This document shows, in pieces, positions 43,935 to 63,038 of a stretch of DNA of 64,000 nucleotides. The notes below the pieces were generated by a model. It saw only the letters and a list, made by a program, of their open reading frames with translations, was not told the origin of the DNA and ran no database searches. The position numbers were made by a program, and so were the translations under genes. The DNA is from Thermomonospora catenispora (GTDB taxonomy: Bacteria > Actinomycetota > Actinomycetes > Streptosporangiales > Streptosporangiaceae), in contig NZ_RRYT01000003.1 of assembly GCF_006363815.1 (NCBI RefSeq), positions 62,001 to 126,000 on the forward strand. Direction: 5' to 3'. Each line of letters opens with the position of its first letter. Positions within the stretch are counted from its first letter, which is position 1.

Positions 43935-44330
43935 GTGAACGGGTTGTTCGTCTACGGGACGCTGCGGTTCCCGGCGGTGCTCGAGGCGCTGCTGGAACGG
44001 GTGCCGCCGATGGAACCGGCCAGGGCTCCGGGATGGCGGGCGCGGGCGCTGCCCGGGGCGGTCTACCCCGGGCTGATCCCCGACCCGGGCGCGACGACGG
44101 ACGGGAGGCTGATCCTCGGCCTGACCCCGGCGGAGATCTCGCTGCTCGACGAGTACGAAGGCGATCTGTACGAGCCGCGGGTGATCGCGCTGGACGGGGG
44201 ACGGACCGGCCGCGCCTATCTGTGGAAGGGGCCCGTCGAGGAACGCGACTGGGACCCCGAACTGTTCGTCCGACGGCATCTGACGGCGTATGTCCAACGA
44301 TGCCGGGCATGGCGGGAAAGTCGCGGCTGA
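43935..44330 (+). CDS. Gamma-glutamylcyclotransferase-like (GGCT/AIG2 fold) protein
   Basis: 131 residues. The start [20 protein letters not shown] is the signature of the GGCT fold. [20 protein letters not shown] and [12 protein letters not shown], with the catalytic-type Glu, follow. Enzymes of this fold cyclise gamma-glutamyl amines; the substrate is unknown here. GTG 43935 puts the first strand at the right place. Confidence 0.8.
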
Positions 44331-44442
44331 GGCGGCGGTCACGGAACCGTTGACGTGGTCGCTTTATCAAAGTGGAAAGGCAGGGTATCGGTCGTTCACA
44401 TGGTGTTCATTTGACCTGGGCGTGGCTTCACGTGGGTCGGGG

Positions 44443-46560
44443 ATGATGATGAGCATGGGCGTCAATCCAGGACAAACGCTCTCTTGGGGAGAAGGGCTGC
44501 CGGAAGGCCGCTACCTCGATCGGGAGGAGAGCTGGCTCCGGTTCAACCAACGCGTCCTGGAACTGGCCGAGGATCCGACGCTGCCGCTGCTGGAACGGGT
44601 GCGCTTCCTGGCGATCTTCGCCACCAACCTGGACGAGTTCTTCATGGTGCGGGTGGCCGGGCTGGCCCGCCGGATGGCCACCGGGCTGGCGGTCAAGTCG
44701 GCCAGCGGCCGGCGCCCCCGCGAGGTGCTGGAGCGCACCGCCGAGGTGGCCGGCGAGCTGATGCAGCGGCACGCCGCCGTCTTCCACGAGCAGATCCTGC
44801 CCGCTCTGGCCGCCGAGGGCATCCAGATCCTGCGCTGGGAGGAGCTGTCGCGGACCGAGCAGGAACGGCTGCACCGGCTGTTCCGCGAGGAGATCTACCC
44901 GGTGCTCACCCCGCTGGCGGTGGACTCGGCGCACCCCTTCCCCTACATCAGCGGCCGGTCCCTGAACCTGGCGGTGATCGTCCGCGATCCCGACACCGAG
45001 GCCAGCATGTTCGCCCGGGTCAAGGTCCCGCCGCTGCTGCCGCGCTTCATCGAGGCGTCCCCGGACCGGTTCACCCCGCTGGAGGACGTGATCGCCGCCC
45101 ATCTGGGGCAGCTGTTCGTCGGCATGGAGGTGGTCGAGCACCACGTCTTCCGGGTCACCCGCAACCAGGACCTGGAGATCGACGAGGACATCAGCGAGGG
45201 TCTGCTGCAGGCGCTGGAACGGGAGCTGCTGCGCCGCCGGTTCGGCCCGGTGGTGCGGCTGGAGGTGGAGGAGACCATCTCCCCCGAGGTGCTGGAGATG
45301 CTCACCGAGGAGCTGGGCGTCGACGAACGGCAGATCTACAAGATCCGCGGGCCGCTGCACCTGGGCGGGCTGCACGCCATCGCCGACCTGGACCGGCCGG
45401 AGCTGAAGTACCCGCCGTTCGTGCCGTCCAAGGAGGCGGTGCCGATCGACGCGGACATCTTCGCCGCCATCCGGGAACGGGAGGTGCTGATCCACCACCC
45501 CTACGACTCGTTCACCACCACCGTGCAGCGGCTGATCGAGGACGCCGCCGCCGACCCGCATGTGCTGGCCATCAAGCAGACCCTCTACCGCACCAGTGGC
45601 GACTCGCCCATCGTGGACGCGCTCATCGACGCGGCCGAGGCGGGCAAGCAGGTCGTCGTGGTGGTGGAGCTGAAGGCCCGGTTCGACGAGCGCGCCAACA
45701 TCGAGTGGGCGCGCAAGCTGGAACAGGCCGGCTGCCATGTGGTGTACGGGTTCGTCGGTCTCAAGACGCACTGCAAGCTGTCGCTGGTGGTGCGGCAGGA
45801 CCCGGACGGGACCCTGCGCCGCTACTGCCACATCGGCACCGGCAACTACAACCCCAAGACCGCCCGCCAGTACGAGGACCTGGGCCTGCTGACCGCCGAT
45901 CCGGAGGTGGGCGAGGACGTCAGCACCCTGTTCAACCACCTGACCGGCTACTCCCGGCAGACCTCCTACAACCGGCTGCTGGTGGCTCCGCGCAGCCTGC
46001 GGTCCGGGCTGGTGATGCGGATCGAACGGGAGATCGACCACCACCGGGCGGGCCGGCCCGCGCACATCCGGATCAAGTGCAACGGACTGGTCGACGAGGT
46101 GATCATCGACGCGCTGTACCAGGCGTCGCGGGCCGGGGTGCCGGTGGACATCTGGGTGCGCGGGATCTGCGCGCTGCGGCCGGGGGTGCCGGGGCTGAGC
46201 GACAACATCCGGGTGCGCAGCGTGCTGGGCCGGTTCCTGGAGCACTCCCGGGTGTTCGCGTTCGAGGACGGCGGCGAGCCGGAGGTGTGGATCGGCAGCG
46301 CCGACCTGATGCACCGCAATCTGGACCGGCGGGTGGAGGCGCTGGTGCGGGTCACCGACAAGGCGCACCGCGCCGAGCTGGTCCGGCTGCTGGACCTGGC
46401 CATGGACGAGGGCACCGCCAGCTGGTGGCTGGGGCCGGACGGCGAGTGGACCCGGCACCAGTACGCCGGGACCGGCGAGCCGGGCTCCCGGGGCGAGCCG
46501 CTGCGGGACATCCAGCGGCATCTGATGAAGACCAGGCGGTGGAGGACGGTGGATGGGTGA
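44443..46560 (+). CDS. ppk: Polyphosphate kinase 1
   Basis: 705 residues, the usual PPK1 size. It builds polyphosphate from ATP reversibly. N domain: [19 protein letters not shown] and [17 protein letters not shown]. The core has two PLD-like domains; [20 protein letters not shown] (about residue 460) holds the His that is autophosphorylated. The C-terminal [19 protein letters not shown] is also conserved. Start chosen at ATG 44443; ATG 44455 is equally possible. It overlaps the NUDIX gene by 8 bases, so they form an operon. Confidence 0.95.
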
Positions 46561-47482
46561 TTCATCCGGCGGGTCGGTGATCCGGGCGGCGGGCGCGGTG
46601 GTGTGGCGCGAGGGCCCGGCCGGCCCCGAGGTCGCGCTGGTGCACCGGCCCGCGTACGACGACTGGTCCTTCCCCAAGGGCAAGCTCGACCGCGGCGAGC
46701 ACGTGCTGCAGGCGGTGCTGCGCGAGGTCGAGGAGGAGACCGGGATGGCGGTGCGGCTGGGCCGCCGGCTGCCCGCCACCGCCTACCTCAAGGACGGGCG
46801 GCCCAAACGGGTCGACTACTGGAGCGCCGTCGCCGTGGGCGGCACCGCGTTCCGGCCCGGCAGCGAGGTCGATCGGCTGCAGTGGCGGACGGTCGAGGCC
46901 GCCGCGCGGCTGTTGACCTATGAGCGGGACGTGGATCTGCTGCACGAGTTCGCCGCCGGGCCGCTGCGGACCCGGCCGGTGGTGGTGCTGCGGCACGCCG
47001 CGGCGGGGGACAAGAGCCGGTGGCGCGATCTGGACGCGCTGCGTCCGCTGGACGAGCGGGGACGCCGCGACGCGCAGCTGCTGGCCCGGCTGCTGGGGGC
47101 GTTCGGCCCCGCCCGGCTGCACAGTTCGCTGACCGCCCGCTGCCTGGAGACGCTGCTGCCGTTCGCGCTGCGGACGGGGGTCGGGCCGGTCGCCGAGCCG
47201 GCGTTCACGGTCGGCCGGAGCGATCCCGAGCGGGCCTGCGCCCGGATGGTGGAGCTGGTCGAGGCGACCGACGGGCCGCTGGTGGTGTGCACGCACGGCG
47301 AGTTCGTCCCCGACCTGGTGGTCGAGCTGTGCCGCCGGTACGGGGAGAAGGTCCCCGAGGACCCGTCGTTGCGCAAGGGAGGGTTCTGGGTGGCGCATCT
47401 GGGCGACGATCGGCTCACCGGCCGGACCTCGCTCGCCGCCCTGGAGCGCCACTTCGCCGACCCGCGCCGATCGGCGGCGTGA
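46553..47482 (+). CDS. NUDIX hydrolase fused to histidine phosphatase (MutT1-like)
   Basis: 309 residues. The N-terminal NUDIX domain has the full box in [22 protein letters not shown] (about residues 43-64). The C-terminal half is a histidine-phosphatase domain beginning [15 protein letters not shown] near residue 143; [12 protein letters not shown] is the second His motif. This two-domain form matches mycobacterial MutT1, which hydrolyses 8-oxo-(d)GTP and diadenosine polyphosphates. It follows ppk with an 8-base overlap and converges with the CYTH-CHAD gene. Confidence 0.93.
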
Positions 47483-47489
47483 GGAGGCC

Positions 47490-49028
47490 TCAGGAGGAGA
47501 TCCGCCGCCAGGTCTCCTCCAGATGGGACAGGGACTCCAGGGCCTCGCAGCGTTCGACGCCGTAGAGGACGCCGAGCACGAACGCCTCCCGGGGAGGGAC
47601 GCCGCGTTCGGCGGCGGCGCCTTTGAGCCACTCCATGGCGATCACGCCGTCCTGGTGGCCGCCGAGGACCTCCTGCAGGCGTTTGGCGTCGGCGGCGGTG
47701 CGCCGGGCCGCCTCGGCGCGGGCGGGATCGAGGTCGGCGAGCGCGGCGGCGGCCAGCTCGGCGGCGTACCGGACGCGTTTGGCGGCCTTGCGGAGGTCGT
47801 GCCGGGCCTCTTCGGGATCGTCGGCGACGGCGATCGCGGCGTGCTTCTTGGCCATCCGCCGCCACTGGCGCCCGACCAGCCGGGGCAGCTCCTTGACGGC
47901 GGCGCGGTCGGCGCGCTCGCCCAGCGGTGGATCGGTGAGCAGGGCGTCGAGGGCGTCCAGCAGCGCGAAGTACCGGTCGGTCTTGAGGTGGGCGTTCAGC
48001 CGGCGGTAGGCGGACTTCTCCCGTTTGGCCAGCTCTTCCAGCCAGGACTGGGGCTCGGCGACGTCGAATCCCAGCGGCCGGGCGAGCCGGTCGGTGAACC
48101 GCATCCGCAGCACCTCCAGGTCGCGGACCTCGCCCAGCACCGCGGCCAGCCACCGCAGCTCCGGCTCCAGCGCCGCGATGCGCTCGGCGTCCAGCACGGG
48201 GGCGAAGCTCTTCAGGGCGCTGCGGATCCGGCGGGTCGCCACCCGCATCCGGTGCACCGCGTCGAACTCGGCCAGCCGCGCCTTGGGGTCGAACTCCAGC
48301 ACCGCCTCCACCTGCCGGGCCAGATAGCCGAGCACGGCCGCGCCCGCCGTGTGCGGGGGCGCCGCCGCGGGCCGGGGCCGGCCGCCGTTGAACGGCACCG
48401 TCATCACCGGCGCCAGCACCCGGCTCAGCTTGGCCGAGCCGTCGGCCTTGCGGGCGCCGGCCTTCTTCAGCAGCTTGCCGGCGGCCTTGAGCAGGCCGGG
48501 CTCTCCGGCGGGGCCCAGCTCGACCTCGATCTCCCGCCACCCGGTCGCCGGCGGCTCGGCGCCCTCGGCCGCCGCCGGGTCGACCAGGCGGCCGACCACC
48601 ACGTCGTCGGTGACCTCGGCGAGCACCCGGCCGTCGGCGTCCAGCAGATCCACGACGGTCCGTTCGGTCTCCAGCGTCGCCACCGGGCGCAGCGGCGCCC
48701 CGCGGGTCTGCGCGGCGACCAGCGAGGCCAGCCGCGCCGGGACGATCGTGGGGCGACCGAGCGAGGCGCGCAGCTCCCGCTTGCTGTCGGGGCCCACCGG
48801 GATCTTCAGATGCCAGCCGGCGTCCTCGCCGCCGCGTCGTCGCCGCAGGGTGATGCCGCGGGCGGCCAGCCGGTGGTCGTCGGTGTCGAAGTAGGTCGCC
48901 ATGAGCACATGCGTGCGGGGTTCGCTCACCGACGCGACCCCGGGAAGACCGGACAGGTCCGGCATTGTGAAGTCGTCGTCGGCGTCGTATTTGCGTTCTA
49001 CCTCAAGCTGGCTTTTCGGGTCGGCCAC
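47490..49028 (-). CDS. CYTH-CHAD domain protein
   Basis: 512 residues. The N-terminal CYTH (triphosphate tunnel) domain starts with LEVERKYDADDDF, carrying E-x-E-x-K; Arg/Lys-rich strands follow. The CHAD domain (about 225-500) shows its conserved basic helices VHRMRVATRRIRSALKSF and ARHDLRKAAKRVRYAAELA. CYTH domains hydrolyse inorganic triphosphate or bind polyphosphate, and CHAD binds polyphosphate. Lying beside ppk, it most likely works in polyphosphate turnover or localisation (inference). ATG 49028. Confidence 0.92.
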   Translation of the reverse strand: MADPKSQLEVERKYDADDDFTMPDLSGLPGVASVSEPRTHVLMATYFDTDDHRLAARGITLRRRRGGEDAGWHLKIPVGPDSKRELRASLGRPTIVPARLASLVAAQTRGAPLRPVATLETERTVVDLLDADGRVLAEVTDDVVVGRLVDPAAAEGAEPPATGWREIEVELGPAGEPGLLKAAGKLLKKAGARKADGSAKLSRVLAPVMTVPFNGGRPRPAAAPPHTAGAAVLGYLARQVEAVLEFDPKARLAEFDAVHRMRVATRRIRSALKSFAPVLDAERIAALEPELRWLAAVLGEVRDLEVLRMRFTDRLARPLGFDVAEPQSWLEELAKREKSAYRRLNAHLKTDRYFALLDALDALLTDPPLGERADRAAVKELPRLVGRQWRRMAKKHAAIAVADDPEEARHDLRKAAKRVRYAAELAAAALADLDPARAEAARRTAADAKRLQEVLGGHQDGVIAMEWLKGAAAERGVPPREAFVLGVLYGVERCEALESLSHLEETWRRISS

Positions 49029-49604: not shown

Positions 49605-50082
49605 CCGGGTACTCGATCAGGTGGTACTTCATCCCCATGTGGCTGGGGCGGAAGCCCATCTTCTGGTAGAACCGGATGGCGTTCGGACGCTGGCGGTCGG
49701 TGGTGAGCTGGACCACGCGGCAGCCGCGGGCACGGGCCTGTTCGATGACCCATTGGATGAGGGCCTGACCGACGCCGCGGCCGCGGTATTCGGAGGCGAC
49801 GCGGACGCCTTCGATCTGGGCTCGCTCGCCGCCGGTGTAGGTCAGGCCGGGGATGTAGGTGAGCTGGAGGGTTCCGGCGATCTCGCCGTCGATCTCGGCG
49901 ACGATGATGGAGTTGTTGGGGTCGGCGTCGATCGCCTCGAAGGCCCTCCAGTAGGCCTCCGGCAGCTCGTCGCCGGGGGACTCGCGGGTACTGCCGAGCG
50001 GATCGTCGGCCAGCAAGCGGACGATCGCGGGCACATCCTCCCGGACAGCCTCGCGGAAGGTCACCTTTTGATCACGAGTCAC
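49588..50082 (-). CDS. GNAT family N-acetyltransferase
   Basis: 164 residues. Full GNAT fold: FREAVREDVPAIVRLLADD start, NSIIVAEIDGEIAGTLQLTY, acetyl-CoA loop VASEYRGRGVGQALIQWVIE near residue 96, and RPNAIRFYQKMGFRPSHMGM. Such stand-alone proteins acetylate small amines, antibiotics or protein N-termini; the substrate is unknown. ATG 50082. It is divergent from the Wbl operon and shares the region with twin palindromes. Confidence 0.9.
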   Translation of the reverse strand: MTRDQKVTFREAVREDVPAIVRLLADDPLGSTRESPGDELPEAYWRAFEAIDADPNNSIIVAEIDGEIAGTLQLTYIPGLTYTGGERAQIEGVRVASEYRGRGVGQALIQWVIEQARARGCRVVQLTTDRQRPNAIRFYQKMGFRPSHMGMKYHLIEYPDPTDS

Positions 50083-50833: not shown

Positions 50834-51069
50834 AAAGAGACATCACGGACCCGGCGTCTTGAAAGTGATGATTCGCTGAACCGGCATCGCGGCAATGGAG
50901 TCGGAGATGATTTTCTGGCCGGGTAGGTAAAACTACATATTCCGGGCGTTCGGCCGCCGATATCGTCCACATGGCCCGGATGCGCACGCGTGGTGTGAAT
51001 AATGTGCGCCGTGTCGAATGTGTGGACGGTCCGTTGACGAAGATCGATCCGGTGGTCGATGCGCCGGAA

Positions 51070-52365
51070 ATGTCGGAAATAGTCAGGGAGCTTCGTGCTC
51101 TCGCCGCACATCCGCGGCTGTCGGCGCGCGAGCGGCACCTGCGGCGCCTCGCCGATGACCTGGACGCCGGCCGCGATCTGGACCGCTGGGCCCAGATCGA
51201 CCTGTACGCGGCGTTCGCGCGCGAGGAGACGATCGGTCCCGCCGCGCACGGCGTCCGACGGACCCGCGCCGGCGCGGTCCTGGACCTGGCGTCCGGCCTG
51301 GTGATCTTCATTCCGATCCTGATCACCTGGTTCGGCCTGTTCAGGGCCACCGCCGCGTACCGGATGAGCCGCGGGGACACCGCCCTGGCCGGCAAGTCCT
51401 TCCTCGAGCAGTGGCAGACCGGCTTCCACGGCCGGCTGCCCGCCTGGCTCTACTTCGACCGGATCGCCTGGTGGACGGTGCTGGCCATCGTGCTGCTGAT
51501 GGCCCTCTCGGCCGGGCACACGCTGTGGCGGCGCCGCGAGGAGGGACGGGACAGGCGGGAGCGCACCGCGTTGATGAGCCGGCTCACCGCCGCGCTCACC
51601 GACGTCGACCTGGAGCTGAGCCGGCTCCGGCTGACCGACGCCGCCCAGCTGCGGCGCAGCGCGGCGCACCTGACCGACGCCTCCCGGGAGCTGGGCAAGG
51701 TCGCCGACCAGGTGCGCACCGTGGAGCGCGAGGCCGCCGAGAGCCTGCGGCTGGTGAACCAGGTCGTCGAACGGGTGAATCGGCTCGCCGACACGGTCAA
51801 CAGCAGCGGGGACGCCGTCCGCGCCGCCGCCGACGACGGCGAACGGATCCGCAAGGCGCTCGAGGACGCCGTCCACCGGCTGCGCACCGCCCTCACCGAC
51901 GGGCAGCGGGAGCACGCCGCCGCGATCGCCGCCGCCCTGGAGCGCAGCGGCGAGGACATCCGCACGGCGCTGGAGGACTGGCGCACCGAAGGCGCCATCT
52001 ACTCCCACCGGCACGAGACCGCGACCGACCATCTGGCCGCGGTCGCCGGGGGCATCGAGGAGCTCCTGCGCCGCACCGTGCAGTCCCTGGGCGAGCTGCC
52101 CGCCGCCGTCGACCGCCTCGAGGACCACGCCGGCCAGGCCGCCGAGCGCCTGGAGCGCACCATGACCGACACCTCGACGCGGATCGCCGCCGACCTCACC
52201 GGGGCGGCCGAACGGCTCAACACCGAGGTCGGGGCGCTGCTCGCCGGGCTGCCGGAGGGACACGCCCGGCAGGTCGCCGCCGAACTGGCCGCGCTGCGCA
52301 CAGCGGTGGAGGGGCTGAGCGACCAGATCGCCCGGACCGGCAGGCGGAAGCGGTGGCCGTGGTGA
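51070..52365 (+). CDS. Membrane protein with long coiled-coil tail (first gene of VWA-PP2C-kinase operon)
   Basis: 431 residues. Two membrane helices, about 68-92 (AVLDLASGLVIFIPILITWF) and 132-152 (IAWWTVLAIVLLMALSAGH), are joined by an external loop. A Gln/Glu/Arg-rich heptad-like tail of about 270 residues lies in the cytoplasm (DASRELGKVADQVRTVEREA). No catalytic motif. The layout resembles MotA/TolQ/ZorA-type subunits with a long tail, but with two instead of three or four helices. ATG 51070 was chosen; the frame extends to 50971, but those codons lose the GC third-position bias. It overlaps the next gene by 13 bases. Confidence 0.75.
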   Translation: MSEIVRELRALAAHPRLSARERHLRRLADDLDAGRDLDRWAQIDLYAAFAREETIGPAAHGVRRTRAGAVLDLASGLVIFIPILITWFGLFRATAAYRMSRGDTALAGKSFLEQWQTGFHGRLPAWLYFDRIAWWTVLAIVLLMALSAGHTLWRRREEGRDRRERTALMSRLTAALTDVDLELSRLRLTDAAQLRRSAAHLTDASRELGKVADQVRTVEREAAESLRLVNQVVERVNRLADTVNSSGDAVRAAADDGERIRKALEDAVHRLRTALTDGQREHAAAIAAALERSGEDIRTALEDWRTEGAIYSHRHETATDHLAAVAGGIEELLRRTVQSLGELPAAVDRLEDHAGQAAERLERTMTDTSTRIAADLTGAAERLNTEVGALLAGLPEGHARQVAAELAALRTAVEGLSDQIARTGRRKRWPW

Positions 52366-52829
52366 GGTCCCGGCTGCCGACGATCGCCCTCGCCGGCTGG
52401 CTGCTGGCGGACCTGCTGCTGGCCTTCTCCATCGTGGTGCTCGGCACCCAGGAGCCGCCGCCGCGTCCGCGCGCCTCCTCCACGCCGTCCCCGACCCCCA
52501 GCCGGCCGCCCGCTTTGGAACGCCGGTACGTCCAGGTCAGCCTGAACGTCGACCCGGACGCCGCCGCACGCGGCGAGGAGTCCGCGGTCGAGGCGATCCG
52601 CCGGGCGATCCGCGCCCAAGGCCCCCGGCTGGCGGGCCGCCGCGCCGGCATCGTGCTGACCTTCGGCGCCCAGCACAGCGGCGGCGAGAGCTTCGCCAAC
52701 GACGTCAACAAGCTCCTGCCCCGCGCCGACGACCTGCTCTTCGGCGACGTCGCCACCCGCGACTTCCAGCTCCTCGGAGCCTCCGGCGGAGCGGTGCTGC
52801 TGAACATCTACCTCTTCTACGACCACTAG
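52353..52829 (+). CDS. Single-pass membrane protein with MotB/ZorB-like helix
   Basis: 158 residues. One N-terminal membrane helix (about 9-31) reads IALAGWLLADLLLAFSIVVL, with an Asp in the first half, as in the proton-carrying helix of MotB, ExbD and ZorB. A Pro-rich linker (QEPPPRPRASSTPSPTPSRP) follows. The outer domain, about 90 residues, has YVQVSLNV and RRAGIVLTFGAQHSGGES, which recall an OmpA-like fold but lack its clear signature. Likely partner of the preceding membrane protein. Start among GTG 52353/52359/52362 is uncertain. Confidence 0.65.
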   Translation: MAVVRSRLPTIALAGWLLADLLLAFSIVVLGTQEPPPRPRASSTPSPTPSRPPALERRYVQVSLNVDPDAAARGEESAVEAIRRAIRAQGPRLAGRRAGIVLTFGAQHSGGESFANDVNKLLPRADDLLFGDVATRDFQLLGASGGAVLLNIYLFYDH

Positions 52830-52838
52830 GAGACTTCC

Positions 52839-53507
52839 ATGAGCCAGCAGGTCCTCCCCTTCTACCTGGTGTGCGACGAGTCCTACTCGATGGACGGCGC
52901 CCCCATCGACGCGATCAACAAGTCGCTGCCCGAGATCCACCAGGAGATCGGCGGCAACCCGGTCGTCGCCGACAAGACCCGGTTCTGCCTGATCAGCTTC
53001 TCCAGCACCGCGCAGGTGCTGCTGCCGCTGTCGGACCTGAGCGAGGTGACCTCGATGCCCGCCATGGCGGCCTCGGGGAGCACCTCCTACACCGCGGCGT
53101 TCACCCTGCTGCGCGACACGATCGAGAGGGACGTCGCCGCCCTCAAGGCGGCCGGCCACCAGGTGCTGCGGCCGGCGGTGTTCTTCCTCACCGACGGGCA
53201 GCCCACCGACGACGACTGGGTGAGCGCCTACCAGCGCCTCACCGACCCCTCCTGGAAGCCCCGGCCGAACATCCTGGCGTTCGGCTTCGGCGGGGTGAAC
53301 GTCGACACCATCCAGCAGGTCGCCACCGTGCGCGGCTTCCTCGCCGACGGCTCCCTGGGCCCCGCCCAGGCCTTGCAGGAGTTCGCCCAGTCCCTGATCC
53401 AGTCGGTGATCAACTCCGGCACCTCCGCCGACGCCGGGGGCGGCATGAGCCTGGCCATGCCGGACAAGGTCCCCGGCTTCACCACCGTCCCCGCCGACCC
53501 GGTGTGA
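52839..53507 (+). CDS. TerY-like von Willebrand factor A domain protein
   Basis: 222 residues, cytoplasmic VWA domain. The MIDAS metal site is intact: DESYS (D-x-S-x-S) near residue 13, the Thr loop ASGSTSYTAAF near residue 78, and FFLTDGQPTDDDW near residue 112. This is the TerY branch, found with PP2C phosphatases and kinases. VWA domains bind partner proteins through the bound metal. It starts 9 bases after the membrane protein gene and is followed by PP2C, so it probably bridges membrane and kinase/phosphatase parts. Confidence 0.9.
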   Translation: MSQQVLPFYLVCDESYSMDGAPIDAINKSLPEIHQEIGGNPVVADKTRFCLISFSSTAQVLLPLSDLSEVTSMPAMAASGSTSYTAAFTLLRDTIERDVAALKAAGHQVLRPAVFFLTDGQPTDDDWVSAYQRLTDPSWKPRPNILAFGFGGVNVDTIQQVATVRGFLADGSLGPAQALQEFAQSLIQSVINSGTSADAGGGMSLAMPDKVPGFTTVPADPV

Positions 53508-53547
53508 CCCCCGCCCGGTGATCGACCCCAGACCGAGAGGGAACGCC

Positions 53548-55689
53548 GTGCGCGCATTCGACGACCCGACCCCCGAGGACCGGCCCGAGCAGCGGCCCGA
53601 ACACCCCCGCCGCGACGAGCCCGCCGCCCCGCCGCCCCGCGACGCCGCGGGGTATCGGCCGCAGTACGCCACCGATCCGCATGCGGCGGCGCCACCGCCT
53701 CGATCCGGTACGCCGCCCGCGCAGTCTCAGCCCGCCGGCGAGTGGACGCCGGTCCATCCGTCCCGTTCCGGCGGCACGCCCCCTCCGCATTGGGGCGAGC
53801 AGCACCCCTCACCGGCGCCCCGATCGGGGCATCAGCCGCCGGGGCAGTACCCGCCGCAGCCGTACGGGCCGCCCGCCCCGCCGCCCGGCCCGGCCTACCC
53901 GCAGGACGCGTCGGCGGCCCCGCCCGGGCATCCGCACGGGGCGCCTCAGCAGTGGTACGCCCCCGCACCACCGCCCTACGACCCCTCCCCCTACGGCGTT
54001 CAGCCCGCCGTGCAGTGGACGCCCCCCGAGGAGGCCTACGCCTCGCCTCCGCCCGGGGGACGTCCCGACGGCCCTCGGCCGCCCGCCGGGAACCCCGTCG
54101 CCTACCACGGCTACCAGCCCTATCCGCAACCGCAGCCCACTGAGGTCCGGCCGGCGGAGGACGCCGGGAGCACCGCGCCCGGGGCCGGACCGACCGACGC
54201 CTCCCGGCAGGTGCAGGACGTCCGGCGGCCGGAGGCGCCGGCCGACCCCACGCGGATCGATCCGCCCGCCGGCGCCCGCGAAGCCGCACGGCCGGAGCGG
54301 TCCGCATCGGACGCGCACCCGGCGCAGCCCGCGCAGGACGCGCAGCCCGCGCAGCCCGCGCAGCCCGCACAGCCCGCGCAGCCCGCGCAGGCCGCGCAGG
54401 CCGAGGACCGCCCCCGCCCCCGGTCACAGGACCCCGCCATAGGGGATGTGCCGGACGGCGACCGGTCGCGGCATGAGGGGCGGGAAGGAGGACATGCGGA
54501 CGGACGGGAAGGCGAGCAGGAGGACGACCTGGAGGCGATGGTGCGCGCGGTGCAGTCCCCGCCCGCGGGCGGGTCGCACCGGCAGGAGGCCCGGCCTCCC
54601 GAGCGTTCCGGCGCCACCGCCGACGCCGCGGCCGACGCCCCGGCGGACACCGGGGCCGACGCCGCGCCCGACACCGGGACCGGGGCCGAGCGGTCCGCGC
54701 GGCAGGCGGAGCCGGCAACGGACGCCGCGTCTCCGCCCGCCGGGCGGAGGACCCGCCCCCAGCGGCCCAGGATCAAGCTCACCCGGCACCGGGACGATCC
54801 CGCGCCGGAGAGCGAGACGCCCTTCCCCGCGCCGGTGACGTTCGGAAAGGTGCACCCCCGGGCCGGGGAGGCGCGCGGGCTGCCTCAGGTGGAGCAGGCG
54901 GTGCCGGACACCGTGCTGGATCTGGCGGAGTTCGAAGGGCTGGCGGTCCGGGCGGCCTCGTTGCGCGGCGACGACCACCGCTACACCGGCAAGCCCCGGC
55001 AGGACTCGCTGGGCCTGTGGACGGTGCGCCGGGAGGGCCGGCCGGATCTGCTGGTGGCGGCCGTCGCCGACGGGGTCGGCAGCCGCCCACTGTCGCATCT
55101 GGGGGCGGCGTGGGCCTGCCGGCTGCTTCGCGATCAGGTCGCCGCGCACGCCGACGAGGTGCTCGTCGAGGGCGACCCCGATGAGCTGGGGCGGCGGATC
55201 GTCGAGCGGGTCGCCGCGGCGATGACCGACCGGGCCGAACGCGAGCGGCTGCGGCCCGCCGACCTGTCGACCACCCTGGTCGCGGCCGCCGTCGAGCTGA
55301 CCGGTGCGTCCTCGCCGCAGACCCCGCGCCGGTGCTTCGTGGTGCGGGTCGGCGACAGCACGGCGTATCTGCTGCGCCGGGGCGAGTTCGGGGAGGTGTT
55401 CGACGACGCCCGCGACGAGGGGGAGATCGCCGACTTCGTCACCGCCGCGCTGCCCACCGGCGTCGGTCGGGTTCAGGTCGCCGTGGAGACCGTCGGCGCC
55501 GACGACGTCTTGGTGCTGTGCACCGACGGGCTCACCGGGCCCATGCGGAACGCGGAGGTGAAGGACCGGCTGGCCCGCTGGTGGAGCGGACCGGCGCCGA
55601 CGGCGCTGGAGTTCGGCTGGCAGCTCGGGTTCCGGGCCAGGTCCTATGGCGACGACCGCACCGCCGTGTGCGTGTGGGGGCGCCGATGA
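53548..55689 (+). CDS. PP2C-type serine/threonine phosphatase with long low-complexity N-terminus
   Basis: 713 residues. About 430 N-terminal residues are disordered, rich in Pro, Ala, Gln and Asp, with PAQ repeats at about 54318-54405. The C-terminal domain is PP2C: KPRQDSLGLWTV (first metal Asp), LLVAAVADGVGSRPLSHLG, VLCTDGLTGP and GDDRTAVCVW with the last metal Asp. It removes phosphates placed by the kinase encoded next. GTG 53548 has GAGAGGG 8 bases upstream; a GTG at 53518 lacks one. It overlaps the kinase gene by 4 bases (ATGA). Part of the linker segment is duplicated, inverted, at 49.3 kb. Confidence 0.88.
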   Translation: MRAFDDPTPEDRPEQRPEHPRRDEPAAPPPRDAAGYRPQYATDPHAAAPPPRSGTPPAQSQPAGEWTPVHPSRSGGTPPPHWGEQHPSPAPRSGHQPPGQYPPQPYGPPAPPPGPAYPQDASAAPPGHPHGAPQQWYAPAPPPYDPSPYGVQPAVQWTPPEEAYASPPPGGRPDGPRPPAGNPVAYHGYQPYPQPQPTEVRPAEDAGSTAPGAGPTDASRQVQDVRRPEAPADPTRIDPPAGAREAARPERSASDAHPAQPAQDAQPAQPAQPAQPAQPAQAAQAEDRPRPRSQDPAIGDVPDGDRSRHEGREGGHADGREGEQEDDLEAMVRAVQSPPAGGSHRQEARPPERSGATADAAADAPADTGADAAPDTGTGAERSARQAEPATDAASPPAGRRTRPQRPRIKLTRHRDDPAPESETPFPAPVTFGKVHPRAGEARGLPQVEQAVPDTVLDLAEFEGLAVRAASLRGDDHRYTGKPRQDSLGLWTVRREGRPDLLVAAVADGVGSRPLSHLGAAWACRLLRDQVAAHADEVLVEGDPDELGRRIVERVAAAMTDRAERERLRPADLSTTLVAAAVELTGASSPQTPRRCFVVRVGDSTAYLLRRGEFGEVFDDARDEGEIADFVTAALPTGVGRVQVAVETVGADDVLVLCTDGLTGPMRNAEVKDRLARWWSGPAPTALEFGWQLGFRARSYGDDRTAVCVWGRR
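54318..54405 (+). repeat. PAQ-encoding 9-bp repeats in the PP2C gene
   Basis: About nine copies of GCGCAGCCC or close variants encode (PAQ)n in the linker. The DNA is slippage-prone, so length may vary among strains. Confidence 0.75.
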
Positions 55690-56642
55690 GCCTGCTCGAC
55701 GGATCGGACCTGCGGCTGGGCGACCTGGAGGTGGGGGACAGTCTCGGCCGGGGCGGGCAGGGGGCGGTGCACGAGCTGCGCGGGCCGTGGGCGGACTACG
55801 TCTACAAGGAGTACCTGGTCCCGACGGTGAACGGGGACGCCCTGGCCCGGCTGGTGCGGGTCCCCGGGGGGATGCCGTCGCATGAGCGGGATCTGCTGCT
55901 GGCGCAGGCGGCCTGGCCGCTGGCCCGGGTGGTGGACGGCGGCCGGGTCACGGGGTTCCTCATGCCCAGGGTGCCCGCGCCGTTCTGGGGACGGCGCGCC
56001 AAAGGGCCGGCGCTGCGGGAGCTGCAGTATCTGCTGTACGACCCCAAGCCCTTGTGGGGGGACATCACCCCGCTGGACGGGCCGGGGCGGCTGGAGATCG
56101 CCCGGCGGGCCGCGTCGCTGTTCCTGCTGTTGCACTCCCATCGGCTGGTGGTGGGGGACGTGTCGATGCGGAACCTGCTGTGGTCGCCGTCGCCGCCGGC
56201 GGTCTATCTGCTGGACTGCGACGCGATCCGGCGGGTGGGCGAGCGGCCGGTGCTGCCGCAGCCGCAGACCCCCGACTGGACCGATCCGCAGCAGCCGTCG
56301 ACCGGCCCCGATCTGGACACCGACCGCTACAAGCTCGCCCTGCTGGTGACCCGGGTGCTGTGCAAGAGCCCGGATCTGCGGCCGGGGGAGGAGCCGGTGT
56401 TCGTGCCGGGGCTTCCCGAGCGGGTGAAGGCGGAGGTCGCCGCCAGGTTCGCCGAGGCCGCCCGGCCGCGCGGGCTCAGGCCCGACGCCGCCCAGTGGGT
56501 CAGGGCGCTGGACGAGCGGGGGACGATCGAGCTGCCTCCGCTGCCGCCCGTGCGCACCCCGCCCGATCTGCCCAAGGCCCCCCTCGGCGGAGGGCCGATA
56601 CGACGGCCGACCATTCGGCTGCGACCGCCCGACCGACGATGA
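55686..56642 (+). CDS. Divergent protein kinase of the TerY-P triad
   Basis: 318 residues. Glycine loop SLGRGGQGAVHEL near residue 19 and catalytic Lys in YVYKEYL near residue 40. The catalytic loop is VVGDVSMRNLLW, where HRD is replaced by V-G-D but Asp and Asn remain. The metal loop is LLDCDAI in place of DFG. These changes are typical of YegI-like kinases found with TerY-type VWA and PP2C proteins. The Pro-rich tail ends at residue 318 without membrane helices. It overlaps the PP2C gene and ends the operon. Confidence 0.85.
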   Translation: MSLLDGSDLRLGDLEVGDSLGRGGQGAVHELRGPWADYVYKEYLVPTVNGDALARLVRVPGGMPSHERDLLLAQAAWPLARVVDGGRVTGFLMPRVPAPFWGRRAKGPALRELQYLLYDPKPLWGDITPLDGPGRLEIARRAASLFLLLHSHRLVVGDVSMRNLLWSPSPPAVYLLDCDAIRRVGERPVLPQPQTPDWTDPQQPSTGPDLDTDRYKLALLVTRVLCKSPDLRPGEEPVFVPGLPERVKAEVAARFAEAARPRGLRPDAAQWVRALDERGTIELPPLPPVRTPPDLPKAPLGGGPIRRPTIRLRPPDRR

Positions 56643-61796: not shown

Positions 61797-62269
61797 CCAC
61801 GGCCGTCCAACCCGCGGGCGGAGGCGGCGGGTCGTCCGCCGGCGGGCTCGCCGACGTCATCGACACCATCCTCGACAAGGGCCTGGTGATCGACGCCTAT
61901 GTCAGCGTCTCCCTGCTCGGCATCCAGCTGCTGACGGTGGACGCCCGCGTCGTCGTGGCGAGCGTGGAGACCTATCTGCAGTTCGCGGAGGCGACCGACC
62001 GGCTGGACCTCACCGAGCACGAGAAACCCGGCGTGGGCGACCTGGTGGGCGGACCGCTGCCCGGCGAACGCTCGGGCGAGGCGGAGGACTCCGACCGGCG
62101 GGCCCTGCAGGCTGCCCCGGTCGACGCCGAGGCCGACGACGAGGCCGCCTCCGGCGAGAAGGCCGGATCCGTTCCCGACGCGGCCCACGAGGCGGGCCCC
62201 CGCGAGGAGGCCGAGGCCGTTCCCCGCCGCGGGCGCCGCCCCGCACCGGACCGGCCCCGGAAGGACTGA
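61793..62269 (+). CDS. gvpA: Gas vesicle structural protein GvpA (extended actinobacterial form)
   Basis: 158 residues. Residues about 20-70 carry the GvpA fold: [20 protein letters not shown] then [20 protein letters not shown] and [15 protein letters not shown]. GvpA forms the hydrophobic ribs of the gas-filled shell. The long, charged C-terminal tail is usual in Streptomyces-type GvpA but absent in cyanobacteria. It overlaps the SRPBCC gene and is followed 1 base later by gvpF. A GvpJ role is an alternative, but a separate J-type gene is present. Confidence 0.85.
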
Positions 62270-62270
62270 G

Positions 62271-63038
62271 ATGACGACCGATCAGCGGGAGACGGGCCGG
62301 ACGGACTCCGCCTGGTACGTGTACGGCATCGTTCCCGCGGACGTGGAGACCGCCGCCGACGTGCGCGGCGTGGACGGCCGCCGGGTGCAGGTCGTCCGGC
62401 ACGGCGACGTCGCCGCCCTGGTCAGCGAGATCGACCCGGGCACCCGGCTCGGCCGCCCCGACGATCTGCTGGCCCACCAGCGGCTGCTGGACGACGCCGC
62501 CGTCGACGCGCCCGTGCTGCCGTTGCGGTTCGGCGCGGTCATGACGACCGCGCAGGCGGTGGCAGAGGATCTGCTGGCGCCCAACCGGCAGGGGTTCGCC
62601 GAGGCGTTGGCGAACCTGGAGGGCCGGGTGGAGTACGTGCTCAAGGGCCGCTTCGACGAGCGCACGGTGCTGGGCGAGGTGGTCCGGGAGAACGCCGAGG
62701 CGGCCCGGCTGCGCGAGCGGATCCACGGCCGGCCGGAGACGGAGACCCACCGGGACCGGGTGCGGCTCGGCGAGCTGATCCACCGGGAGATCGAGGCCCG
62801 GCGGCGGGCCGTCACCGAGCGGCTGGTCCGGGAGCTGTCCCCCTGCTGCGTCGCGAGCGCGGTGCGGGATCCCACTCACCATCTGGACGCCGTGCACGTC
62901 GCCCTCCTGGTGGAGGACGCGCGGCGTCCGGAGCTGGAGGAGGCGGCGGCGACGGCCGTCCGCGCCTGGGCGGATCGCGTCGAGCTGCGGCTGCTGGGCC
63001 CGCTCGCGCCCTGGGACTTCGTCGTGACGCCGGGATGA
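62271..63038 (+). CDS. gvpF: Gas vesicle protein GvpF/L
   Basis: 255 residues. The start AWYVYGIVPADVE, the core HQRLLDDAAVDAPVLPLRFG near residue 75, and LREELS-type helices then DAVHVALLVEDARRPELEEA match GvpF/GvpL. These bind GvpA monomers and are needed for assembly. ATG 62271 follows the gvpA stop directly. Confidence 0.9.
   Translation: MTTDQRETGRTDSAWYVYGIVPADVETAADVRGVDGRRVQVVRHGDVAALVSEIDPGTRLGRPDDLLAHQRLLDDAAVDAPVLPLRFGAVMTTAQAVAEDLLAPNRQGFAEALANLEGRVEYVLKGRFDERTVLGEVVRENAEAARLRERIHGRPETETHRDRVRLGELIHREIEARRRAVTERLVRELSPCCVASAVRDPTHHLDAVHVALLVEDARRPELEEAAATAVRAWADRVELRLLGPLAPWDFVVTPG

Follow-up and report, generated by a model that had tools for sequence, protein, structure and literature searches.

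Two membrane protein genes directly precede a VWA/PP2C/kinase triad in Thermomonospora catenispora, and the arrangement raises the question of whether the five products form one machine and what such a machine would do. The window, the whole 64,000-nucleotide stretch of contig NZ_RRYT01000003.1 analysed here (positions 62,001 to 126,000), carries these genes as a co-directed, tightly spaced operon between 51070 and 56642, and the open reading frames and translations, obtained with a simple gene-calling script, uphold the gene calls and coordinates of the initial annotation:

51070 to 52365, + strand: P0001, large membrane protein with two transmembrane (TM) helices and a long coil; ORF opens at 50971
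52353 to 52829, + strand: P0002, small membrane protein with one TM helix, exported
52839 to 53507, + strand: VWA protein, cytoplasmic, YegL homologue
53550 to 55689, + strand: PP2C phosphatase, PphC homologue; ORF opens at 53518
55686 to 56642, + strand: protein kinase, YegI homologue

In the sequence the P0001 and P0002 genes overlap by 4-13 nt, gaps of 9 nt and 10-42 nt separate P0002 from the VWA gene and the VWA gene from the PP2C gene, and the PP2C and kinase genes overlap by 4 nt. The PP2C start was placed at 53550 because a ribosome-binding site precedes it. For P0001 the originally annotated start at 51070, which has an equivalent in most relatives, is preferred to 50971. Compared with the nearest relative (L021, same genus), the 33 codons between 50971 and 51070 show 4, 5 and 3 changes at codon positions 1-3, and the next 100 codons show 7, 12 and 21; lacking a third-position excess, the extra codons do not evolve like coding sequence, and the upstream start was dropped. 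A promoter scan of the operon gave no match with the sigma-70 consensus used, which is ill-suited to this genome.

The annotated neighbours are rhomboid, SDR, Spo0M and polyphosphate genes. A polyphosphate cluster at 44290-49028 encodes polyphosphate kinase, a NUDIX/His-phosphatase protein and a CYTH-CHAD protein; a 93-nt tRNA-Glu (ctc) called by ARAGORN at 49858-49950 (+ strand) is longer than a normal tRNA-Glu; and a gas-vesicle GvpL/GvpF gene (PF06386, 1.9e-61; 62271-63038, + strand) lies close to the right end of the window. A rhomboid protease gene (PF01694; 56680-57384, + strand) starts 37 nt after the operon, and L021 encodes a 4-TM protein of similar size at the equivalent place. No rhomboid-like gene was seen after the operon in the other relatives examined, and the protease is therefore not counted as a member. 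The early observation that no terD lies nearby holds for the whole contig, the TerD homologues of this genome being on other contigs only.

The three downstream genes encode a phosphorylation triad with conserved catalytic features. The VWA product matches the Pfam VWA family (2.7e-8), and its metal-binding MIDAS site is intact, with D13, S15, S17, T82 and D119 invariant in relatives and in YegL. The PP2C domain (Pfam, 1.8e-28) spans residues 483-692 of the ORF from 53518 and follows a long Pro/Ala-rich N-terminal region; the aspartates of its QDS, ADG, TDG and GDD motifs are all present. The window kinase has no match in Pfam; it keeps the Gly-rich loop, K41, D158, N163 and D177 and is alignable with YegI. 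Judged by these residues, all three proteins look active. Searched against E. coli, the family profiles match YegL (1e-21), PphC (1e-11) and YegI (1e-18), each its own counterpart, which indicates that the triad is real and of the YegL/PphC/YegI (TerY-P-like) kind. In common with TerY-P and the E. coli set it combines VWA, PP2C and Ser/Thr kinase genes in one operon, and it differs from TerY-P in having two membrane genes in front and no ter genes nearby. TerY-P kinases carry a C-terminal zinc ribbon (PMC11090510, describing the triad of Anantharaman, Iyer and Aravind 2012). The kinase of the window contains two Cys altogether, about 20 residues lie beyond its kinase domain, no OB-fold was seen on its C-terminus, and none of the listed relatives has a CxxC in its C-terminal extension. 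The TerY-P assignment made at the outset is thus correct as to the company of the three genes and their homology to the E. coli set, and does not extend to strict membership because the kinase lacks the zinc ribbon. PADLOC, whose library may hold no triad models, gave no match to the triad proteins at E<=1.

Whether the membrane genes belong with this triad can be judged from gene neighbourhoods. A GTDB genome scan with P0002 yielded 80 named loci, in Streptosporangiales, Streptomyces and relatives, Glycomyces, Virgisporangium and Chloroflexota. The P0001 gene is close to the P0002 gene in all of them but one truncated locus, and the order P0001 then P0002 is kept in nearly all. All five genes are present in 39 loci, 37 in the standard order and two differing in order or flank. 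The layouts comprise the five genes only (28 loci), the five genes followed by BrxD-BrxHI (nine), BrxD-BrxHI upstream of the five genes (one), the five with the first two swapped (one), truncation after the VWA gene (two), the membrane pair with a kinase and BrxD-BrxHI (two), the pair without a same-strand triad (34) and other arrangements (three). The P0002-to-VWA gap is 1-114 nt in 40 of 41 loci. Recurrence of one order in 37 of 80 loci argues that the set is not a product of chance. These loci were all sampled through the membrane gene, so a reverse search was made from the VWA gene. In 201 family genomes it found 23 homologues at E<1e-60, 20 of them beside P0002; by coordinates, 19 of these abut the P0002 gene and the twentieth is some 2 kb from it. 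Of the 25 weaker VWA matches, none lies beside P0002. Since strong VWA homologues adjoin P0002 and weak ones do not, the membrane pair is part of the system, as had been proposed from the single locus and contrary to the refuting case set out with that proposal, in which the pair would not be conserved beside the triad elsewhere; the genomic linkage of pair and triad is strong. The distribution is patchy, with P0002 genes in a minority (44) of the 201 family genomes and missing from two of the four other genomes of the genus.

The small membrane protein gives the clearest indication of what the pair may be. P0002 consists of one TM helix, a Pro-rich linker and an exported domain of about 100 residues, and its TM motif AGWLxADLLL contains an aspartate, Asp20, that is invariant in 45 alignment rows. 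Single-sequence searches of Pfam, NCBIfam and PDB returned nothing useful, Pfam scans being negative. With a profile searched against all PDB sequences, ExbD takes ranks 1 and 2 (E 0.058 and 0.22), TolR is among the matches listed (E 2.0), and Asp20 aligns with the ion-carrying Asp of both. Alignment to ExbD/TolR by hhalign gives a probability of 83-87.5% and a score of 39-41; among 48 decoy families the probability is 9.5% at best and the score no higher than 25, and the reversed profile has a probability of 0.4%. The exported domain yields a confident structure model whose fold matches are not decisive: chorismate mutase (Z 8.4) is slightly ahead of OmpA (7.9) and MotB (6.3), with SiiA at 6.4. 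That P0002 is a remote relative of ExbD/TolR, and a candidate B subunit, is well supported at the level of sequence profiles.

P0001 is harder to place. Its TM helices (residues 100-118 and 165-183, numbered from 50971) follow a cytoplasmic N-terminal helical domain, enclose a short outer loop and lead into a charged helical inner tail of about 270 residues. This layout corresponds to that of ExbB minus its first TM helix, with two TM helices instead of the three or four of MotA, ExbB and TolQ, and the long tail recalls the cytoplasmic extension of ZorA, which is needed for defence (PMC11890865). Single-sequence searches of Pfam, NCBIfam and PDB gave nothing useful; no sequence similarity to MotA, ExbB or TolQ was detected, hhalign against ExbB and MotA gave no signal above equally high controls, and the families listed for 56 members do not include MotA_ExbB. 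The core is modelled confidently (AlphaFold2 pLDDT 94.5). Among 350,542 chains Foldseek ranks ExbB 1-4 with this model, at an E of about 1 that is weak and not significant, and VIA-align gives Z 6.1 amid many helical proteins, a level of helical background. PADLOC matches to ZorA are confined to the coiled coil and were discarded, and a ZorA search of 119 genomes of the phylum gave weak matches of coiled-coil type only. P0001 is a plausible candidate A subunit (ExbB/TolQ/ZorA-like). The membrane sensor or motor suggested by the initial annotation is therefore supported on the side of P0002, by its ExbD/TolR-like profile, and not on that of P0001, with two TM helices and no MotA/ExbB/TolQ match in sequence; a motor nature of the complex is moderately supported.

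A link to BREX comes from relatives of the window operon. In 11 loci a BrxD-BrxHI gene pair begins a few bases past the kinase gene. Two representative pairs match the PADLOC models at 1e-182 and 3e-162 (BrxD) and at 0 and 3e-298 (BrxHI), Pfam PF10923 also supports the pairs, and by coordinates 14 BrxD genes lie beside P0002 in the 201 family genomes. All 11 kinases with BrxD downstream extend 167-333 aa past the matched kinase region, and the last ~104 aa of their tails match the C-terminus of a protein encoded upstream of BrxD (E 1.6e-21 to 3e-8). A protein with this C-terminus immediately precedes BrxD in all six BREX-2 loci examined, and three of the six were confirmed as PglZ (PF08665). 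PglZ is the usual neighbour of BrxD in BREX-2. Kinases without downstream BrxD, including that of the window, gave no match to the PglZ-like domain; a 376-aa extension on one of them (L061) was considered as a docking tail and rejected, as it stems from a truncated profile match and does not match the docking domain. Read most simply, the PglZ-like domain would be where BrxD-BrxHI docks, and the kinase would have replaced PglZ. The BrxD proteins of this system and those of BREX-2 are split by a single branch of the tree with 100/100 support, and the VWA tree places the BrxD-bearing clade as sister to the window (97/91).

The window operon itself is a short form, with no docking tail on its kinase and no BrxD; the long form, with both the tail and BrxD-BrxHI, occurs in Streptosporangiales, for instance in Microbispora rosea (L038). 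A defence role is likely because kinases of the relatives are tied by domain fusion to the BrxD-BrxHI of BREX. The suggestion that the operon could be a defence system thus gains from the relatives and not from the window: the role is probable for the long form, and for the short form we infer it from those relatives, since no full BrxD was found in the window genome and its kinase has no tail. Short forms in Streptomyces have flanking genes common to many genomes, a pattern as compatible with a resident gene set as with a mobile defence set. Two Herbidospora loci (L074, L075) retain the membrane pair, a kinase with docking tail and BrxD-BrxHI, and are missing VWA and PP2C; where other kinases have the two catalytic aspartates, theirs has VGNLS and VGCDG and is probably dead. 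Inactivation of the kinase along with the loss of VWA and PP2C would fit a triad that works as one switch. In Streptomyces lichenis (L060, 1-7529) genes of BREX-2 type, for a protein with a PglZ-type C-terminus, BrxD and BrxHI, with AbiU between, adjoin the five-gene operon; this upstream BrxD-BrxHI was rejected as a second association, given that it sits with AbiU and the PglZ-type protein and that its BrxD groups with BREX-2. The available portion of PMC12839542 describes BrxHI and BrxD as a tightly linked dyad with an uncharacterised role, and the arrangement of pair or triad with BrxD-BrxHI is not described in that portion of the open-access literature.

The membrane pair, an unannotated family with no match above the curated cut-off in Pfam or NCBIfam, also has other partners. 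In other genomes it adjoins GAP1 and GTPase genes; in one locus (L102) it is beside a dynamin-like/SrfB-like pair, and in another (L036, 11342-20480) beside a cluster of genes for a type I-like methyltransferase, a PD-T4-6-type kinase, a UvrD helicase and a DruE-like helicase, which looks like a separate MADS-like defence cluster. In eleven actinobacterial loci, mostly Streptomyces, the pair faces a separate kinase-PP2C-VWA set in convergent orientation, usually accompanied by GAP1; in one Chloroflexota locus it comes after a VWA-PP2C-kinase set. A gene for a ~720-aa protein directly follows the pair in L083 (10460-12625) and, as equivalents, in 13 other loci, in most of which its orientation is convergent with that of a kinase-PP2C-VWA(-GAP1) set; the L049 copy has no match in Pfam or PADLOC. 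Taken together, these neighbourhoods make the pair look like a membrane module that can be exchanged among the conflict systems of actinobacteria. The GAP1-N2 GTPase-centric systems share the theme of actinobacterial kinase, PP2C and standalone vWA genes, and many have TM components, according to the accessible part of PMC7159879, an open-access source in which that part describes no ExbBD-like pair. The membrane pair adjoins such sets in Streptomyces and relatives, whereas the genes annotated around the window operon include no GAP1 or DO-GTPase.

Two further systems invite comparison. With Zorya ZorAB (PMC11890865) and the ion-driven ExbBD/TolQR/MotAB complexes, the operon shares an A-then-B pair whose B protein has a TM Asp and an exported domain, an A protein with a long cytoplasmic helical tail and, in relatives, defence-type partners. 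It differs in the two TM helices of its A protein, which has no detectable MotA_ExbB, and in the presence of the phosphorylation triad; ZorB had no PADLOC match in the window operon, and ZorC, ZorD and ZorE are absent among its annotated neighbours. With BREX type 2 the long-form relatives share BrxD-BrxHI and the PglZ-type C-terminal domain of the kinase; the operon differs in lacking PglX, PglY, PglZ and PglW, a kinase being in the place of PglZ, and none of PglZ, BrxD, BrxHI and PglX/Y/W is present in that of the window. The Shango SngB/SngC models also score on the long-form BrxD-BrxHI.

The reading we consider best, at somewhat better than even odds, is that the operon encodes an envelope-anchored motor or sensor that controls a phosphorylation switch in phage defence. 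Its five products would act as one signalling machine at the cell membrane. P0001 and P0002 would form a complex of the ExbBD/TolQR/ZorAB type, possibly with a 5:2 assembly and use of ions, that has the exported domain of P0002 as its outer anchor and extends into the cytoplasm through the helical tail of P0001. An envelope change, phage attack being the likeliest, would alter this complex; the VWA protein would relay the change to the kinase/phosphatase pair, and these two enzymes would determine a reversible state of phosphorylation. In the long form the PglZ-type domain of the kinase could then hand the signal to the BrxD-BrxHI ATPase-helicase, which would act on DNA, while the short form in the window might act through a different phosphorylated target or through a flow of ions across the membrane pair.

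How the membrane pair and triad came to be adjacent, how the pair works and what the switch serves could each be explained otherwise. Chance adjacency of the pair and an unrelated triad would account for the 34 of 80 loci in which the pair has no adjacent same-strand triad, but 11 of these have another, convergent kinase-PP2C-VWA set, and with five genes kept in 39 loci and 20 of 23 VWA homologues by P0002 this explanation is refuted by conservation and carries almost no weight. A more serious contender, to which we would give about one chance in three, is that the pair is a passive sensor or scaffold, a coiled-coil receptor joined to a cell-wall binder that positions and switches the kinase with no ion-driven motor. 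The two TM helices of P0001, its coiled-coil tail, the missing MotA_ExbB match and the weakness of its ExbB fold matches are all as expected of a scaffold; less readily explained are the invariant TM Asp of P0002 in register with the ion-carrying residue of ExbD and TolR, a profile match far above decoys and the A-then-B gene order of nearly all loci.

The switch might instead serve housekeeping, as an actinobacterial counterpart of YegL/PphC/YegI that signals envelope state or growth through a membrane sensor, with BrxD-BrxHI as a late side branch and the short form unrelated to phage. The homology of the triad to the E. coli proteins is consistent with such a role, and so are the majority status of the short form, its flanks shared by many Streptomyces and the ordinary character of the other genes in the window (polyphosphate kinase, NUDIX, CHAD, rhomboid, SDR). 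A patchy occurrence, even within the genus, is not what a housekeeping function would predict, however, nor is recurrence of the membrane pair beside unrelated conflict-type systems or fusion of the sister-clade kinase to a BREX docking domain, and we regard this alternative as unlikely. Recurrence of the set in dozens of species, together with one branch bearing a BREX docking tail and two BREX genes, makes it probably an undescribed immune system.

For the reading as an envelope-anchored switch in phage defence, the most far-reaching version, offered tentatively, is a new class of immunity. An ExbBD/ZorAB-like stator in a Gram-positive envelope would turn a phage-induced change into kinase activity; the kinase would dock and control BrxD-BrxHI through a transplanted PglZ C-terminal domain; and the same pair would be an exchangeable front end for other conflict systems, such as GAP1/GTPase and kinase-MTase-helicase clusters. 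If true, a protein-phosphorylation switch would be added to the few known motor-type defence systems, and motor-type defence would be brought into monoderm actinobacteria. The long form offers a handle on an open question in BREX, that of the role and recruitment of BrxD-BrxHI: a ~100-residue C-terminal domain of PglZ travels with BrxD-BrxHI outside BREX, and is for that reason the predicted docking site. The membrane pair, for its part, represents a protein family that has gone unannotated and recurs beside several conflict systems.
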